Below, one piece after another: positions 27,799-33,687 of a stretch of DNA of 64,000 bases. How positions within the stretch are numbered: the stretch's first letter is position 1; every line of letters starts with the position of its first letter. The stretch is from Methylocapsa acidiphila B2 (GTDB lineage Bacteria > Pseudomonadota > Alphaproteobacteria > Rhizobiales > Beijerinckiaceae). The stretch spans positions 3,512,004 to 3,576,003 of the forward strand of contig NZ_KE386496.1 in NCBI RefSeq assembly GCF_000427445.1, in the 5' to 3' direction. The notes beneath the pieces are model-generated. The model did not search any database, had not been told where the DNA came from, and saw only the letters and a program-made list of their open reading frames with translations. The position numbers and the translations under genes were made by a program.

Positions 27799-28899
27799 TC
27801 AGGCTCCGGGGGGCGCGTTTCTCGCGGCGGCGGCGCGGGCGGCGATCGTCTCCATATTGTGTCGCGAGCTTCGCGCGAGTCCGTGCTCCGTCTTGTGCCA
27901 ATGATGCGGACGCAGGATCAAATCATAAAGCGCGGCCCAAGCGGCGGCCGACATCATGAGATAATAGGGAAAAAGCAGCGGCAGAAACGGCCAAAGGCCG
28001 AGGAGCTTGCGCCGTTTCATGCCAAGCAGCGAGAGCCAGATCACCGAGCCGCCGCCGAAAAGGACCACCGAAGCCCAGAGCGCCGCGATGACGAAGTCGA
28101 GCCCGGTGGCCGGATGGGGCAGGCCGAAGGCGGCGAGCTCGTAAATGGTGGCGGCGGTCAGAAAGGGCCAAAGCGGCGGCGCGAGGACGAGGCTCGTCAG
28201 CATTAGAACCAACGCTCCGGCGTTGATTGCTCCGACCTCGGCGACGAGGCGGCGCGGATGCCGGCTCAGGGTGATCAGCGTTTGCATCCATCCCTTGGAC
28301 CAGCGCCGCCTTTGCGTGAGCCAGGCGCTGAACCTGCTCGGCGCTTCCTCCTGGGTGTGGGAAGGCAGCGTGCCCGCGCGATAGCCGAAACGGGCGAGCC
28401 GAAGGCCGAGGTCGGCGTCCTCGGTCACGTTCCAGGCGTCCCAGCCGCACACTTCGTGCAGCACGTCAGCGCGGAAATGGTTCGACGACCCTCCGAGCGG
28501 CGGCGGCAGGCGAAGCGCAGCGGTCCCGGGGTTCAGAACGTCGAACAGCGACGCATATTCGATCGAGAACATCCGGGTCAGCCAAGAATCCTCGATATTG
28601 TCGATCGTCAGCCGCGCTTGAAGACAGGCGAGCCGGCGGGGCTCGCGCAAGAAGCGCTCGGCCGCCTCGCGGAGCTGCAGGGCCGAGGGGGCGTCCTCCG
28701 CGTCGAAGACCGCCACGAATTGGCCGCGGAGGAGCGGCAGGGCGACATTGAGCGCGCGCGGTTTCGTGCGCGGCGACCCAGGCGGCGCGACGACGATCTC
28801 ATAGGTCGGCGGTAGGCGCAAAGCTTCGAGCGCGAGACGGGTGGGGTGGTCATCCGACTCGACGACGAGCTTGATGTCGAGCTTGCCGCGCGGATAGTC
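27799..28899 (-). pseudogene. C-terminal part of a transposon-split GT2 glycosyltransferase
   Basis: This is 366 codons of a membrane glycosyltransferase, running from the target duplication to the stop. It contains the catalytic middle and end: FDAEDAPSALQL (donor-binding Asp pair), a TED motif in WNVTEDADLGLRL, and the QRRRW motif in WLTQRRRWSKGWMQ, then several C-terminal membrane helices. On its own it lacks the N-terminal domain and first GT-A strand, which lie at 32789-33687. The reading frame is continuous when the halves are joined at one copy of GGATAGTC, giving 663 residues. It is probably inactive now. Confidence 0.88.
28892..28899. repeat. Target-site duplication of element 1, left copy
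   Basis: GGATAGTC directly abuts the left inverted repeat and is repeated exactly at 32789-32796 just outside the right one. Eight bases is the duplication length known for the IS1595 family. Confidence 0.92.
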
Positions 28900-28997
28900 C
28901 GGTATTATGGCGCAACTGCCACAAGCGATTTAGCTCCAGTCCCCCATCTGATTCCGAAAGGAGTCAGTGAGTGAGGGCGGCTGCGCTGGGCGCGCTT

Positions 28998-29918
28998 CTA
29001 TCTTGTAGTATTCTGTTTTCCTACTGGATTAATTCTCCAGTTTGGTACCTCAATCCCCTTTTTTTGCATCATTCCATTTCCTTGGATACGAAGGCAAACC
29101 TCAGAGACCCTTGTGGTGCTATTAAAAATATCTGTATACTTCACGGCGCTATAAAGGAACATTATTTTACTCCCGCTCAACACAGCAGCCAATTCGAGAT
29201 CTCCTATAGCGCGTGGAGTAGAATTGGCAGAAGCCCCTGGGCCAACTGGGAAATCCCCGCGCGATTCTTGCCAATTTGCCCCAAAGACGGGGATATCCTC
29301 TTCAAAGATAGGGGTATCATCACTCTGATTAATGATCCTATGGTCGATGAAAATAATTACGCCGATAGCGGGTGTCCTACCAAAGTTCTTCCAACGAACG
29401 GAGAACCCTACGGCCCTTTGGAACGAGATTTCATTTATCCTGCTATTAAAGGAAGGAAAACTTTCAACAGTTTCAAAGCATATCCACGCCCTCTCGGTGC
29501 CAACAGCAAGTATTGCTGCATTAGCAGAATCACGAGCCGCAGAGATAGTGTCTTTCATATCGGCCGCTTGTTGATCAGCGGCAATGCGCAGCCCGGCAGT
29601 TTCCCTAAACAAACCAGCAGTGGCGTAATAAAGGAGATACGTAAAGAGCACCAAAAGACCGTTGAATATGACAAGCAAAGTATCGGTGGGCTTCTCAAAA
29701 ATTTGCTCAACCCAATGACTTTTTTGCTCTCCTTTATCATAATATTGATTATGATCCAGCGTCGCAGCAAACTTGCGGGAATCGCGATTATGATATGGGG
29801 CTACGGCTGGCTGGCCGCTACTATGTGGTTCGGGATGTTCCACGCCCAATAAACCAAAGAGGCTAGCTCCAAAGAGCGCTAACAGCGCAAATAGCGGCCC
29901 CCACGCCTTAATAACCAT
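28998..29918 (-). CDS. Passenger membrane protein of unknown function
   Basis: A 306-residue protein with two likely membrane segments, near 7-25 (WGPLFALLALFGASLFGLLG) and near 80-105 (TLLVIFNGLLVLFTYLLYY). A helical stretch (ADQQAADMKDTISAARDSAN) and a beta-rich C-terminal domain beginning around GTERAWICFETVESFP follow. Proteins with this helix pair plus ERAW-type domain are common hypotheticals on rhizobial mobile DNA. An opposite-strand frame of similar length is treated as its shadow. It is the passenger nearest the left end of element 1. Confidence 0.65.
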   Translation of the reverse strand: MVIKAWGPLFALLALFGASLFGLLGVEHPEPHSSGQPAVAPYHNRDSRKFAATLDHNQYYDKGEQKSHWVEQIFEKPTDTLLVIFNGLLVLFTYLLYYATAGLFRETAGLRIAADQQAADMKDTISAARDSANAAILAVGTERAWICFETVESFPSFNSRINEISFQRAVGFSVRWKNFGRTPAIGVIIFIDHRIINQSDDTPIFEEDIPVFGANWQESRGDFPVGPGASANSTPRAIGDLELAAVLSGSKIMFLYSAVKYTDIFNSTTRVSEVCLRIQGNGMMQKKGIEVPNWRINPVGKQNTTR

Positions 29919-29936
29919 TTCCAAAATACCAATTTA

Positions 29937-30176
29937 TTAAAAGTCGTCTAACCTTATGCCTTCTAGCTCTAGCGCTGCAAGGCAGGCCAGCAAAAATGTC
30001 GCGGCGAATGTCCCCCGCTTTAGCTTCATCGTGATAGAGGCTTCGGTCTCTTCAAAGCCGTGCTCTTTCAGCCGGTCCACAAGCTCAACATAGGTGACGC
30101 CAGCTTCCTTCATTTTGGCTTTCAAAAAAGAGCTAGCTCGCGCTTGCCATTCCTCTTCGGTCTTTGCGAATCCCAT
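29937..30176 (-). CDS. DUF6471-family small protein
   Basis: A 79-residue protein whose pattern EEWQARASSFLKAKM..AGVTYVELVDRL then EASITMKLKRGTF matches DUF6471. It reads like a compact helix-turn-helix (a Cro/XRE-like helix pair followed by a recognition helix). The start is ATG 30176. It is divergent from the transposase across a 105-base promoter region with two similar repeats, so I infer that it may regulate transposition. It lies 18 bases upstream of the 306-residue membrane protein and may be cotranscribed with it. Confidence 0.75.
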   Translation of the reverse strand: MGFAKTEEEWQARASSFLKAKMKEAGVTYVELVDRLKEHGFEETEASITMKLKRGTFAATFLLACLAALELEGIRLDDF

Positions 30177-30198
30177 AGCCAAGCCTATCGTTTAAGAG

Positions 30199-30272
30199 AG
30201 CTATCAAAAACGATAGATTGTTGTTGACAGGCTGTCAAACCTACCATATTCGTTAGCTATCAAATTCGATAG
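30199..30272. promoter_or_regulatory. Divergent promoter with paired operator-like repeats
   Basis: AGCTATCAAAAACGATAG (30199-30216) and AGCTATCAAATTCGATAG (30255-30272) are direct repeats, identical at 16 of 18 positions, each an imperfect dyad (CTATC/GATAG). Between them TTGACA (30224-30229) with a 17-base spacer to TATTCG (30247-30252) forms a plausible transposase promoter. A repressor bound at both sites could control tnp and the divergent DUF6471 gene. Confidence 0.6.
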
Positions 30273-30281
30273 GTAGCGAAT

Positions 30282-31265
30282 ATGTCGCAGCATTTCCTCC
30301 TCTCCCGCCCTGCCAAGACCCTGAGCCTCGCTCAGGTCTTCCGCATGTCGGACGCGGAAGCTGAGACGATGTTCTGCAAAGTCCGTTGGCCCGAGACGGA
30401 AGGGAAGCCTGTCTGCCCCCATTGCGGCGGGCTGGAGCCCTATGAGTGCCGGCGCCCAAATGGCTCGCTCCGGTTCCGCTGCAAGGCCTGCAAGAAGGAC
30501 TTCACTGTCACCAGCGGGACGCTGTTTGCCTCGCATAAACTCCCGCTACGCGGCTATCTCGCGGCCATCGCGATCTTCTGCAATGAAGTGAAGGGGAAGT
30601 CCGCTCTGGCGATCTCTCGCGATCTCGGATTGTCTTACAAGGCCGCCTTCGTCCTCTTGCACAAACTGCGGGAAGCAATGGCAGAGGAAATGAAGGGCCG
30701 CACGGTCGGCGGCGAAGGCAAGGTCGCCGAGATCGACGGCGGGTATTTTGGCGGATACATCAAGCCGGCAAACATCAAGGAAAACCGCGTCGATCGCCGC
30801 TTAGGCCGCAACCAAAACGGCAAGCGCCAAGCTGTCGTCATCGTCCGCGAGCGTAATGGCCGTTCGCTTCCGGCCGTCTTCCGCACCGAAGGGCAGGCTC
30901 TTTCATTCATCCGCTCGCGCATTGCCAAGGGAACCGTCATCAATGCGGACGAAGGAAGCTCTTGGGACGCGCTGCATGCTCAATACGAGATGAAGCGCAT
31001 CAATCACCAAGAGGCCTACAGCCTAGACGGCGCTTGCACGAATTGGGCGGAAGAATTTTTCAGCCGCATGCGCCGCGCCGAGCAAGGCCATCATCATCAT
31101 ATTGCCGGGCCGTACCTGCTTCGTTACGCGCAAGAGGCATCTTGGCGGGAGGACCATCGCCGGATAAGCAACGGCGAGCAGGTTCATATGGTTTCTGGTC
31201 TGGCGATGCGGCGCGGGCCGTCTGTGGATTTCAGCGGATATTGGCAGCGCACGAAAGCTATTTGA
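30282..31265 (+). CDS. IS1595-family (ISXO2-like) transposase
   Basis: A 327-residue transposase. An N-terminal zinc ribbon (Cys45, 48, 67, 70; CPHCGG...CKAC) is followed by the DDE-type domain: Asp152 (AEIDGGYFGG), Asp223 (NADEGSS) and Asn254/Glu256-257 (TNWAEEFFSRMRR). It appears full length. AGGTAG is a possible ribosome-binding site. It is the only transposase in element 1, whose ends and 8-bp duplication fit this family. Confidence 0.93.
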   Translation: MSQHFLLSRPAKTLSLAQVFRMSDAEAETMFCKVRWPETEGKPVCPHCGGLEPYECRRPNGSLRFRCKACKKDFTVTSGTLFASHKLPLRGYLAAIAIFCNEVKGKSALAISRDLGLSYKAAFVLLHKLREAMAEEMKGRTVGGEGKVAEIDGGYFGGYIKPANIKENRVDRRLGRNQNGKRQAVVIVRERNGRSLPAVFRTEGQALSFIRSRIAKGTVINADEGSSWDALHAQYEMKRINHQEAYSLDGACTNWAEEFFSRMRRAEQGHHHHIAGPYLLRYAQEASWREDHRRISNGEQVHMVSGLAMRRGPSVDFSGYWQRTKAI

Positions 31266-31270
31266 TGACG

Positions 31271-31855
31271 CTATTCGTTTCGTAAGCTATCAAGTGGCGC
31301 ATACAATGAAAACTCATTGCCTTTGCAACCTTCGAATCCCAGTGTTTTGTACCACTGATAGAGACTTGAATTGTCGCGACCACCTTCGCTTTCGAGCACG
31401 ATTCCCCAAGCCGCGATATCTGGATTACGGTGAATGCGCCGTGCTGCATCTATTATCAAGGCAACACCAAGTCCCTGTGGGGCTAAATCATCACGCCCCA
31501 TGAAACCGATTCTAATCATAGGGACAGGAATGCCACGTGGGGCCTTCCGATCGTCGCGGTTGATAAGATTAGATTTCTGGATCAACGCCGCAGATAATGT
31601 ATAAAACCCCAAAATATGATTTGGGGACTCCGGGTTTTGAATGACGAAGGCTCGACAATAGTTTTTAGGAATCCATATTTTTGCTTCGGTTGAAAAAAAA
31701 TTTGAGATCCGCTCGCTTCTCGAAGATTTGAAGTCAGCAGTTAAGTGACGTTCAGCCAATAAAACAGTGTTTAAAGGCTCTGGCCTCGGAGCAACTTCAA
31801 GAGCTGTGTCCCCTTGCGGATCGCTTCTGTTGGCTGTTTTGGAGTCGTCATGCAT
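31271..31855 (-). CDS. GNAT acetyltransferase, TacT-like toxin candidate
   Basis: A 194-residue GNAT protein. FYTLSAALI, the IPVPMIRIGFMGRDD strand and the acetyl-CoA loop APQGLGVAL, then WYKTLGF near the end, follow the plan of TacT/AtaT toxins that acetylate aminoacyl-tRNA. Its first ~28 codons overlap the preceding antitoxin-like gene; similarity begins near LLAERHL, so the real start may be a TTG around 31763. The antitoxin-first, overlapping order is usual for TacAT. It converges with the transposase, 5 bases away. The toxin role is inferred. Confidence 0.75.
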   Translation of the reverse strand: MHDDSKTANRSDPQGDTALEVAPRPEPLNTVLLAERHLTADFKSSRSERISNFFSTEAKIWIPKNYCRAFVIQNPESPNHILGFYTLSAALIQKSNLINRDDRKAPRGIPVPMIRIGFMGRDDLAPQGLGVALIIDAARRIHRNPDIAAWGIVLESEGGRDNSSLYQWYKTLGFEGCKGNEFSLYAPLDSLRNE

Positions 31856-32031
31856 TGGATAAATTCATCAAAATCACTTTGCTCAAGCGTGACAATCCCC
31901 TCGAATTGGTCGCCGGAGTCAATAGGAAGCGCGGTCTCATTTTTCGTCTGGATCGTGTGATAATTAGTTTGTTCGGCCGTTAGCGGATCAAAAGGCCCGA
32001 CAGTTTGGCCACAGATTGAATCGAAGGTCAT
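31771..32031 (-). CDS. Antitoxin-like protein lacking an RHH domain
   Basis: An 86-residue protein from ATG 32031 (AAAAGGG upstream). Only the C-terminal third resembles DUF1778/TacA antitoxins: LEQSDFDEFIQCMTTPKQPTE fits the toxin-neutralising tail (a helix ending in a Phe/Pro-rich clamp). The N-terminal ribbon-helix-helix DNA-binding part of TacA is absent, replaced by an unrelated ~50-residue stretch. It immediately precedes and overlaps the GNAT gene, so a cognate antitoxin is the best guess. Confidence 0.6.
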   Translation of the reverse strand: MTFDSICGQTVGPFDPLTAEQTNYHTIQTKNETALPIDSGDQFEGIVTLEQSDFDEFIQCMTTPKQPTEAIRKGTQLLKLLRGQSL

Positions 32032-32265
32032 GGCTGATCCCTTTTCAGGGCAAATGAGATAGGGCCTGCGGCAAAGCCGCAGAAGGGCGTCTGTGCTAGG
32101 CACAGACTATGGTCTCAATAATAAGCATTAACGGAGAGCTGCCACACACTCCGCATATCGGCGTAACAATCAAAGTCACAGCATATGGTTGCCAGTCAAT
32201 CGCCCATTGACAGGAATGAAAGTTTATGTTACAGGCCTTAGCCTGCGGATAGGCCTGTCAATAAT

Positions 32266-32730
32266 TCAAAAAATATTTTCATGAGCGCGTTGATGTGGCG
32301 GCCTTGCCACGAATAAGCTCCACACTCGGACGCCCCCGCGCTTCTCCGTCCCATCAATCATCCCTCTCCGGCATTGCTGGCGCAACGCATGGATAAGCCG
32401 GGCCGCGACAGCCTTAGCGAGTACCTTGTCGCCAGTGTCGAGCCCCTTCGCTGCCATGACCTTCAAGGCTAGCTGGCGCGTATTGAGCGGGCCTTGCGCC
32501 AAAGCTTCCTTGCATAAGGCGATGGCCTCGCCTCGCTTGAAGCAGCGATGAATATCGACATAGGGCGGGATTTCTTCCCGATCGCCCGATGCCTCAAAGA
32601 TCGTGATCGCTGCGGTTATGTGCGCCAGGTCGGCCCGCGCTTGCGCGAGCTTCTTTTCATAGTTCGCGATTGAGGCGATGATTTCCGCTCTTTTGGAGCG
32701 AAGGGTCGTAACTGTGCGTATCTCTGCCAT
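32266..32730 (-). CDS. Passenger protein with coiled coil and helical domain
   Basis: A 154-residue protein. Residues about 8-45 are a coiled coil (RSKRAEIIASIANYEKKLAQ), and about 70-130 look like a winged-helix fold (EALAQGPLNTRQLALKVMAAKG). It resembles hypothetical proteins that recur in rhizobial insertion elements. DNA binding is possible. It stands alone at the right end of element 1, between the antitoxin-like gene and the right inverted repeat. Confidence 0.6.
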   Translation of the reverse strand: MAEIRTVTTLRSKRAEIIASIANYEKKLAQARADLAHITAAITIFEASGDREEIPPYVDIHRCFKRGEAIALCKEALAQGPLNTRQLALKVMAAKGLDTGDKVLAKAVAARLIHALRQQCRRGMIDGTEKRGGVRVWSLFVARPPHQRAHENIF

Positions 32731-32788
32731 GGGGCAGATTTAGGCGCTGGGCTGACTGATTTCTTGTGGCGGTTGCGCCATAATACCG

Positions 32789-33687
32789 GGATAGTCGATC
32801 GCTTGCAGCGCCGTCGCGAGCTGCGCCACGATGCGCGCTTCACGATGGAGGGCGATGACGATCGAATAGGTCGGGAGCATCCGGTCTGGGAGCCGGATAG
32901 GAGAGGGCGGGCTCGCCGCAGCGACGCTCGCCGAGCCGGCGAAGAGGCGCAACATGATCGCCGCCAGGAACAAGCCGTTCAAACTGAGAGACAATGTAGT
33001 CCAGGCGAAAGTGGGCGCCAGGGCGAGCAGGAGGGCCGCGATCGCGACCGCTATGACGGCGATCCGGCGTTGCGCCTCCGTCGCGCCGTCCTTTGCCGAA
33101 AAGCTTGGGTCGACGCTCGAAAGGCCGAGGCTCGCTGCGGCCGCGATGGTCGGCGCGGCGAAAGCCTGGACGAGCCGCGACAAATGGGCGGGCGTGGTGA
33201 TGGCGAGGCCGGCGCTCGCCAGATGATGACCGCCGCCCGCGCGAAGGAGATCGGCGAGAGCGGCGCCGCGCGGCGCTGCGAGCCAATGCAGGCCCATGTC
33301 TCCTTGCAGGGGAGCGACGCCGGCGTGAATGGAATGGGGGTAGCGGGCGCCGGCCCCGAGCGCGTGGTCGGTTTGCGTGAACGGCAAGCCGAGATGGCGC
33401 GCGATGGAGCTGTAGTAGAACGACTCGTCGACGACGCCGGTGGCGAGCAAGGCGGCGTCGGGGGAAATCGCCTGTTCCCGCGCTTGAGCCTGGACAAGGC
33501 GGAGAAACTCGGGAGGCGCGCCATAACGAGACAAAAAGGCGAGCTCGACCGTCAGCCCGTCCAAATGGCGATCGGCCGCCACGTCGGCGAGCGCCGTCGA
33601 TGTTGGCGGAGAAGGCGGACCGAGGCTCCTCGGGCCGACCGGTGATTGGTTTCGGTCGACGGACTGGAAATTCATTCGAAAATTCAC
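32789..33687 (-). pseudogene. N-terminal part of the split GT2 glycosyltransferase
   Basis: This is 297 codons plus the target duplication, ending inside element 1 at a new stop (32740). It holds an N-terminal domain like those of type II secretion/pilus ATPases (GAPPEFLRLVQAQAREQ...SFYYSSIARHLGLPF), two membrane helices (about 200-245) and the first GT-A strand YSIVIALHREARIVAQL. Joined to 27799-28899 it rebuilds a 663-residue protein reading DYP-RGK across the junction. The GTG at 33687 is assumed as start; an ATG four codons on is possible. It was probably a processive surface-glycan synthase. Confidence 0.88.

Follow-up and report, generated by a model that had tools for sequence, protein, structure and literature searches.

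Why is a glycosyltransferase (GT) gene of Methylocapsa acidiphila B2 cut in two by a transposon: has the loss of the enzyme been selected, or did the element itself choose the gene? The gene lies in a stretch of 64,000 nucleotides (contig NZ_KE386496.1, positions 3,512,004 to 3,576,003; hereafter the window), in which an earlier note had read a passenger-carrying IS1595 transposon that splits a gene for a 663-residue enzyme, and had suggested that this loss might be selected. We find that insertion into this gene recurs with codon-exact placement, that a second protein, of 154 residues in the window and here called P154, nearly always accompanies the transposase, and that the phylogeny of P154, and not that of the transposase, follows the target. 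From sequence comparison we consider it likely that P154 recognizes the target DNA and guides the transposase to it, in the manner of Tn7 but by means of an unrelated selector.

The element spans 28900–32788 (3,889 bp) and is bounded by 26-bp terminal inverted repeats, which match at 25 of 26 positions, and by an exact 8-bp duplication, GGATAGTC, at 28892–28899 and 32789–32796. When the element and one copy of the duplication are removed, a single open frame runs through ...QAI-DYP-RGK... and encodes a GT of 663 aa. Ends, duplication, restored frame and transposase domains all agree with the split as first described, including the single mismatch in the repeats. The two halves are not always separate genes: uninterrupted homologues were sought and are present, with 357 of 397 genomes of the GTDB family matching the GT at E ≤ 1e-20, many of them over the full length.

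Recurrent insertion at fixed codons

Among 60 related genomes, 55 gave a match to the GT protein and several of these have the gene in two pieces, and in G008, G013 and G033 the break falls at about the same residue as in the window. The breaks that were opened are occupied by IS1595 elements with 8-bp duplications, at the DYP codons in these three genomes, at HFR in G003 and at about residue 401 in G023. A search of 248 family genomes with the transposase (E ≤ 1e-60) gave 47 matches in 38 genomes. Ends were placed for 40 (the other seven being L083, L084, L089 and L101–L104), 38 of them with an exact 8-bp duplication; L074 and L096 have inverted repeats only, and the repeats of L069, L073 and L085 are weak (18 of 24). 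Twenty of these 40 insertions, all with an exact duplication, are in the GT gene and one each is in dprA and comM, where chance would place about 0.02 of 40 insertions in a gene of about 2 kb in a genome of about 4 Mb.

Three sites in the GT gene are used, DYP, a W^LT-type site at about residue 401 (GT-401) and HFR, in a codon-fixed register that shifts by one base at DYP. Insertions occur at identical nucleotides, plus or minus one base, across different genera and families and come from different transposase subgroups, and the orientation of the element relative to its target is mixed in the GT-DYP, GT-401, GT-HFR and dprA groups. An IS1595 end stands at the GT break in 29 of the 357 GT-bearing family genomes, four of these breaks (L198, L200, L203, L204) being observed from one side only. 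Two sites of a single GT gene are occupied in L098 and in L069, and L272 appears to be a similar case. In 16 intact GT genes the DYP site matches as well as the occupied sites do (Mann-Whitney p = 0.31); the empty sites are therefore not lost sites, and the idea that intact genes had lost the site was ruled out.

Two different IS1595 elements stand back to back at the GT-DYP site in L186 (1828–6460 and 6468–9989), so an occupied site does not bar a second insertion. Larger elements of about 12–20 kb also interrupt the GT gene, near residues ~470–505 (L189, L190/L191, L192), and in each case a Phage_integrase (tyrosine recombinase) gene adjoins the junction; mobile elements of unrelated kinds seem to use the GT gene as an attachment site. 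It is also broken by ~21 and ~40 kb of DNA in two further genomes (G009:C1 3875407–3896938 and G119:C6 31668–71973), with no IS1595 transposase match in the parts read.

Other genes are entered with similar precision. In a scan of contigs from named genomes, restricted to the best 80 loci among the matches listed, 55 loci have exact ends: 13 in GT, 10 in dprA, 1 in comM and 31 elsewhere. Four more (L105, L122, L130 and L152, in GT or dprA), with no exact duplication or one end only, stand outside this count. The GT cases in the named-organism records include Methylocystis, Hyphomicrobium, Rhizomicrobium, Hyphomonadaceae (L152, with an inexact duplication), Marinicaulis and Parvularculaceae. 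Over the whole set, the 12 insertions in dprA all fall in a single register, at the Gly-Pro codons of IRS..(I/V)GP, and the two in comM likewise have a common register, at DELPEF. The target was identified by Pfam in L116 (DNA_processg_A, 1.3e-39; dprA) and L141 (Mg_chelatase, 2.4e-56; comM), and the remaining dprA and comM assignments follow from the common motif. L133, L134 and L146, which belong to one P154 subclade, are each inserted close to a tRNA-Arg gene, about 10 bases or less from its 3′ end.

The pooled set holds 100 elements, 38 in GT, 12 in dprA, 2 in comM and 48 elsewhere, with copies met twice counted once, except L074 and L075, identical copies from separate positions of the same genome. 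As a sample of targets the pool is biased, with L031, L185–L188, L193 and L194 found by way of split GT genes, and 20 of 40 is the fair figure.

P154 and the choice of target

Clustering of open reading frames (ORFs) in 99 of the 100 elements (the 15-kb L172 was left out) found the P154 family, besides the transposase, in 97. It is missing from L164 and from L185, the latter a copy of 1,278 bp with an internal deletion that keeps a remnant of the P154 start. In the window the P154 gene begins 58 nt in from the right end, and it and the transposase gene point toward each other. In 76 of 89 tabulated elements P154 is found on the opposite strand, downstream of the transposase, and its start is commonly about 60–70 nt inside the end.

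Trees were built for 96 elements, leaving out L031, L185 and L164, which have a short transposase or no P154. With five target labels on 50 of them, quick trees require 4 changes of target for P154, the minimum, and 16 for the transposase, and 100 shuffles of the labels gave a mean of about 25 on each. For the 48 GT and dprA elements a careful P154 tree again requires the minimum, 3 changes, against 14 on the quick transposase tree, and the P154 groups are supported at 100/100 (GT-DYP), 100/99 (dprA), 82/91 (GT-401) and 100/99 (GT-HFR). Approximately unbiased (AU) tests on the transposase data reject each target group as one clade (p 4.5e-07, 1.2e-05, 3.8e-03, 3.1e-04). The nearest neighbour has the same target for all 50 labelled elements when judged by P154 and for 31 of 50 when judged by the transposase, and for 48 and 15, respectively, when neighbours with a transposase identity of ≥70% are barred.

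Single pairs illustrate the point. In one Methylocystis metagenome-assembled genome L186b (in GT) and L116 (in dprA) have transposases that are 88.7% identical and P154s that are 26.9% identical, while L186a and L186b, both at GT-DYP, share 58% of transposase and 48% of P154 residues. The window element and L035, in the same genome and with different targets, share 92% and 39%, respectively. We propose, from such comparisons, that transposase lineages have traded P154 modules and that such trades would change the target.

Elements that lie away from the usual site bear on what is recognized. Scored with a matrix of the DYP site, seven off-site elements of the DYP clade rank 1, 3, 7, 11, 12, 20 and 21 of 78 non-DYP sites (p 4.6e-05, Mann-Whitney, from a run with a larger pseudocount and a slightly wider choice of register; an earlier run had a small pseudocount and no rank test). 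P154 of this clade is predicted to bind around TCGACTATCC....G.CAAGCTCGACAT.

Profiles of three P154 clades (A3 for GT-DYP, A4 for dprA and A5 for GT-401) were run on 397 genomes of the order, and unresolved loci above 95 bits were opened. Six of eight new loci from the GT-DYP profile are at the GT-DYP site (L270–L275), as is one of four from the GT-401 profile at its own site (L277; L280 ends at a contig edge and is not counted), so that 7 of the 12 assessable loci from both profiles are where they were predicted to be. The dprA profile gave no new locus in these genomes, its sole match above 95 bits, L276, being the known off-target element L120. Three known off-target elements (L036, L086, L095) exceed 95 bits with the GT-DYP profile, and the loci below 95 bits that were opened, L283–L285, gave no GT match. 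The element in L277 (8532–9215) measures 684 bp and has perfect 24-bp inverted repeats and an 8-bp duplication. P154 is its only recognizable gene, and as the frame stops before the last conserved tryptophan this copy may be decaying.

Among elements without one of the named targets, L090 and L093, both in the DYP clade of P154, have a common intergenic site next to a palindrome, around TTTCACGTGAAA or a variant of it, that resembles a parS site. Short palindromic or iterated repeats were also seen by eye in or next to the insertions of L035, L110, L132, L151 and L160 and of L138, L139 and L155; part of these elements group together in subclades of P154.

The window element and its proteins

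The features of the locus are as follows; plus and minus give the strand.

27799–28899, minus: 3′ part of the split GT2 glycosyltransferase gene (PF13632 Glyco_trans_2_3, 4.3e-22; joined frame)
28892–28899, no strand: target site duplication, left copy, GGATAGTC, read on the GT strand as GACTATCC, codons D-Y-P; exact 8-bp repeat
28900–28925, plus: left terminal inverted repeat, 26 bp, 25 matching
28998–29924, minus: passenger, 308 aa, no family match (ORF clustering, family searches)
29937–30182, minus: passenger, 81 aa, DUF6471 domain (PF20075, 6.5e-24)
30282–31265, plus: IS1595-family DDE transposase, 327 aa (PF12762 DDE_Tnp_IS1595, 1.2e-35; PF12760 Zn_ribbon_IS1595, 7.6e-12; NF033547 transpos_IS1595, 9.3e-38, cut-off passed)
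31271–31855, minus: passenger, 194 aa, acetyltransferase-like (phrog_1758, 6.5e-13; no Pfam match)
31771–32103, minus: passenger ORF, 110 aa, overlapping the 194-aa passenger ORF, no family match (ORF list, family searches)
32266–32730, minus: P154, 154 aa, proposed target selector with a predicted long helix and winged helix (ORF clustering, trees, predicted model)
32763–32788, minus: right terminal inverted repeat
32789–32796, no strand: target site duplication, right copy; exact 8-bp repeat
32789–33687, minus: 5′ part of the split glycosyltransferase gene (joined frame; aligns with intact homologues), with no Pfam or NCBIfam match

Inverted repeats and an 8-bp target duplication are typical of the IS1595 family, in which passenger genes are occasional. 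The window element is a member of this family by its repeats, its duplication and the domains of its transposase, which has both the N-terminal zinc ribbon (45.4 bits, cut-off 25.4) and the ISXO2-like DDE domain (NF033547, 130.2 bits, cut-off 75). Its G+C content is 51.8%, compared with 61.5% for the window. ORFs that cluster with the 308-aa passenger occur in 21 of the 99 elements; this passenger had no match in Pfam, NCBIfam, PHROGs or PADLOC at the limits used, and a PADLOC search of the four passengers gave no family match. The genome holds three copies of the transposase in all at E ≤ 1e-60. A fourth P154-like gene of this genome (L281, C2 407416–407844) adjoins a transposase fragment (residues 1–93) and an inverted-repeat-like end; it does not lie at a GT site.

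An AlphaFold model of P154 (AF2, from a 58-sequence alignment of the window and locus proteins) has a predicted local distance difference test score (pLDDT) of 87.3, with a helix at residues 3–46 and a winged-helix pattern after residue 68. In a comparison of structures, residues 61–143 can be aligned with numerous winged-helix chains (best Z 9.8, root-mean-square deviation 2.2 over 68 residues). When solved structures were searched by sequence with the P154 alignment, no match fell below E 0.054; P154 had no PHROGs match, in Pfam only DUF4919 at E 0.095, far below the cut-off, and in NCBIfam one match, below the cut-off. The long N-terminal helix of the model is probably a dimerizing coiled coil, and we infer that P154 binds DNA, contacts the transposase and dimerizes.

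Alternatives and known systems

We think it likely that the element belongs to a widespread group of alphaproteobacterial IS1595 transposons with a core of two genes and passengers that vary between elements. The DDE transposase would cut and join, leaving 8-bp duplications. The second protein, P154 (~145 aa), with its predicted N-terminal long helix and C-terminal winged helix, would in a given clade bind one DNA sequence within a conserved gene (three in GT, one in dprA and one in comM) or beside tRNA-Arg, and the bound P154 would bring the transposase to the site, so that swaps of P154 between transposase lineages would alter the target.

Several results weigh against this proposal. Nearly half of the pooled elements, 48 of 100, lie elsewhere, most of them with no recurring target found. 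When the 46 "other" elements in the trees are given a sixth label, the P154 tree requires 15 changes where 5 would be the least possible (shuffled mean 45.6), because some elements of the target clades lie elsewhere. The long dprA and HFR branches meet in the P154 tree, and with neighbours of ≥60% transposase identity barred, the target is correctly predicted by P154 for only 21 of 50 elements, and by the transposase for 9. Resemblance of off-target sites to the usual one was not significant for the dprA clade (3 elements, p 0.24, with L120 first of 85) or for the HFR clade (4 elements, p 0.15). Five of the 12 assessable new loci are off the predicted site (L269 and L282; L278, L279 and L281), and L035 exceeds 95 bits with the GT-401 profile yet is known to lie elsewhere. 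Finally, a Foldseek search with the P154 model gave no match at E ≤ 0.001 (best E 0.042), and we therefore take the winged helix as a fold only, not as kinship.

Transposases of insertion sequences can show target preferences, and if the transposase itself recognized the target, P154 would be a co-travelling passenger or a regulator. The target labels are indeed partly clustered on the transposase tree, where 16 changes compare with a shuffled mean of about 25. However, transposases that are 88.7% and 89.5% identical go to different targets and ones that are 58% identical to the same target, and together with the AU tests and the 31 of 50 correct predictions, as against 50 of 50 for P154, this makes recognition by the transposase unlikely. 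The link between P154 and target could also have arisen by recombinational exchange of P154-bearing ends at one occupied site, with no choice on the part of P154. The closeness of the P154 start to one end, which counts against targeting by P154, and the double occupancy in L186 would both suit such exchange, but elements of the DYP clade at unrelated loci still sit at DYP-like sequence and in other families a P154 profile led to further elements at the site expected for its clade; we regard this explanation as quite improbable.

Loss of the GT may instead have been favored, through phage resistance or a changed surface, and so have enriched disruptive insertions. An IS1595 end at the GT break in 29 of the 397 family genomes and the interruption of the gene by unrelated integrase elements fit this explanation, although integrase elements are as a rule site-specific in their own right. 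Selection for loss would neither confine insertions to three codon-exact sites nor link every site with one P154 clade, and the same group of elements inserts in dprA, comM and tRNA-Arg 3′ ends, so that we give it very little credence. The suggestion in the earlier note that loss of the enzyme was selected is not borne out, as recurrence at the same nucleotide, the variety of transposase subgroups and a target that follows P154 point to the choice of the element; selected loss of a phage receptor as the cause of the insertion is unsupported. An adaptive reading is not needed, and the element appears to go to the GT gene by preference; selection may act on the retention of the insertion. A single ancient insertion, inherited vertically or moved with the gene by horizontal transfer, would account for the common site in some genomes of one genus and could hold for single pairs of genomes. 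As a general account we reject it as scarcely credible, since genus mates carry intact GT genes and the occupants vary in transposase (~58% identical), inverted repeats, orientation and, by one base, the position of the duplication; moreover, one genome has a back-to-back pair of unlike elements, and in at least two further genomes two sites of a single gene are occupied.

Targeting by P154 invites comparison with known systems. With IS1595 insertion sequences the elements share transposase domains, inverted repeats, 8-bp duplications and occasional passengers; here nearly all add a second conserved protein and many are site-selective. With Tn7 and Tn7-like elements, whose target selectors are TnsD/TniQ, they would share the use of a dedicated protein to bring a DDE transposase to a conserved site on the chromosome. 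The proposed selector is, however, a ~145-aa protein with a predicted winged helix and no TniQ match, the target gene is split, and the orientation is not fixed. The six ORFs of the window element have no TniQ/TnsD-type Pfam match and no AAA+ TnsC-type match, and we therefore do not file it as Tn7-like. The IS110/IS1111 elements with their bridge RNA are likewise small and have a separable choice of target, but the present elements encode a DDE transposase of the IS1595 family, have 8-bp duplications and carry a protein that tracks the target in its phylogeny. In the open-access literature (PubMed Central), outside which most subscription papers lie, we found no description of site-selective IS1595 elements or of P154.

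To our knowledge the GT gene has no tie to transformation. AbaR islands lie in comM. In Acinetobacter this gene is interrupted by Tn7-like and other mobile elements, so that a Tn7-like element shares comM as a target, and a conflict over natural transformation has been proposed (PMC11472951). The dprA and comM targets fit that idea. We lean toward regarding P154 proteins as small, modular DNA-reading selectors, each clade tuned to one site, such that a swap would retarget a similar IS1595 transposase and elements with P154 only could be delivered in trans; as several targets (dprA, comM) are genes of natural transformation, part of the group may disarm this pathway, through which hosts rid themselves of mobile DNA.

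The known cases in which a dedicated protein targets transposition are mainly Tn7-like systems of several proteins. Here the cue would be a ~145-aa protein beside one transposase, and as natural clades pair selector with site, the rules of target reading are directly testable through selector swaps; if it held true in the laboratory, this would be a compact, protein-programmed insertion system. Choice of target by P154 would account for the repeated breakage of one polysaccharide gene across alphaproteobacteria, and it cautions against taking such gene breaks as adaptive loss.

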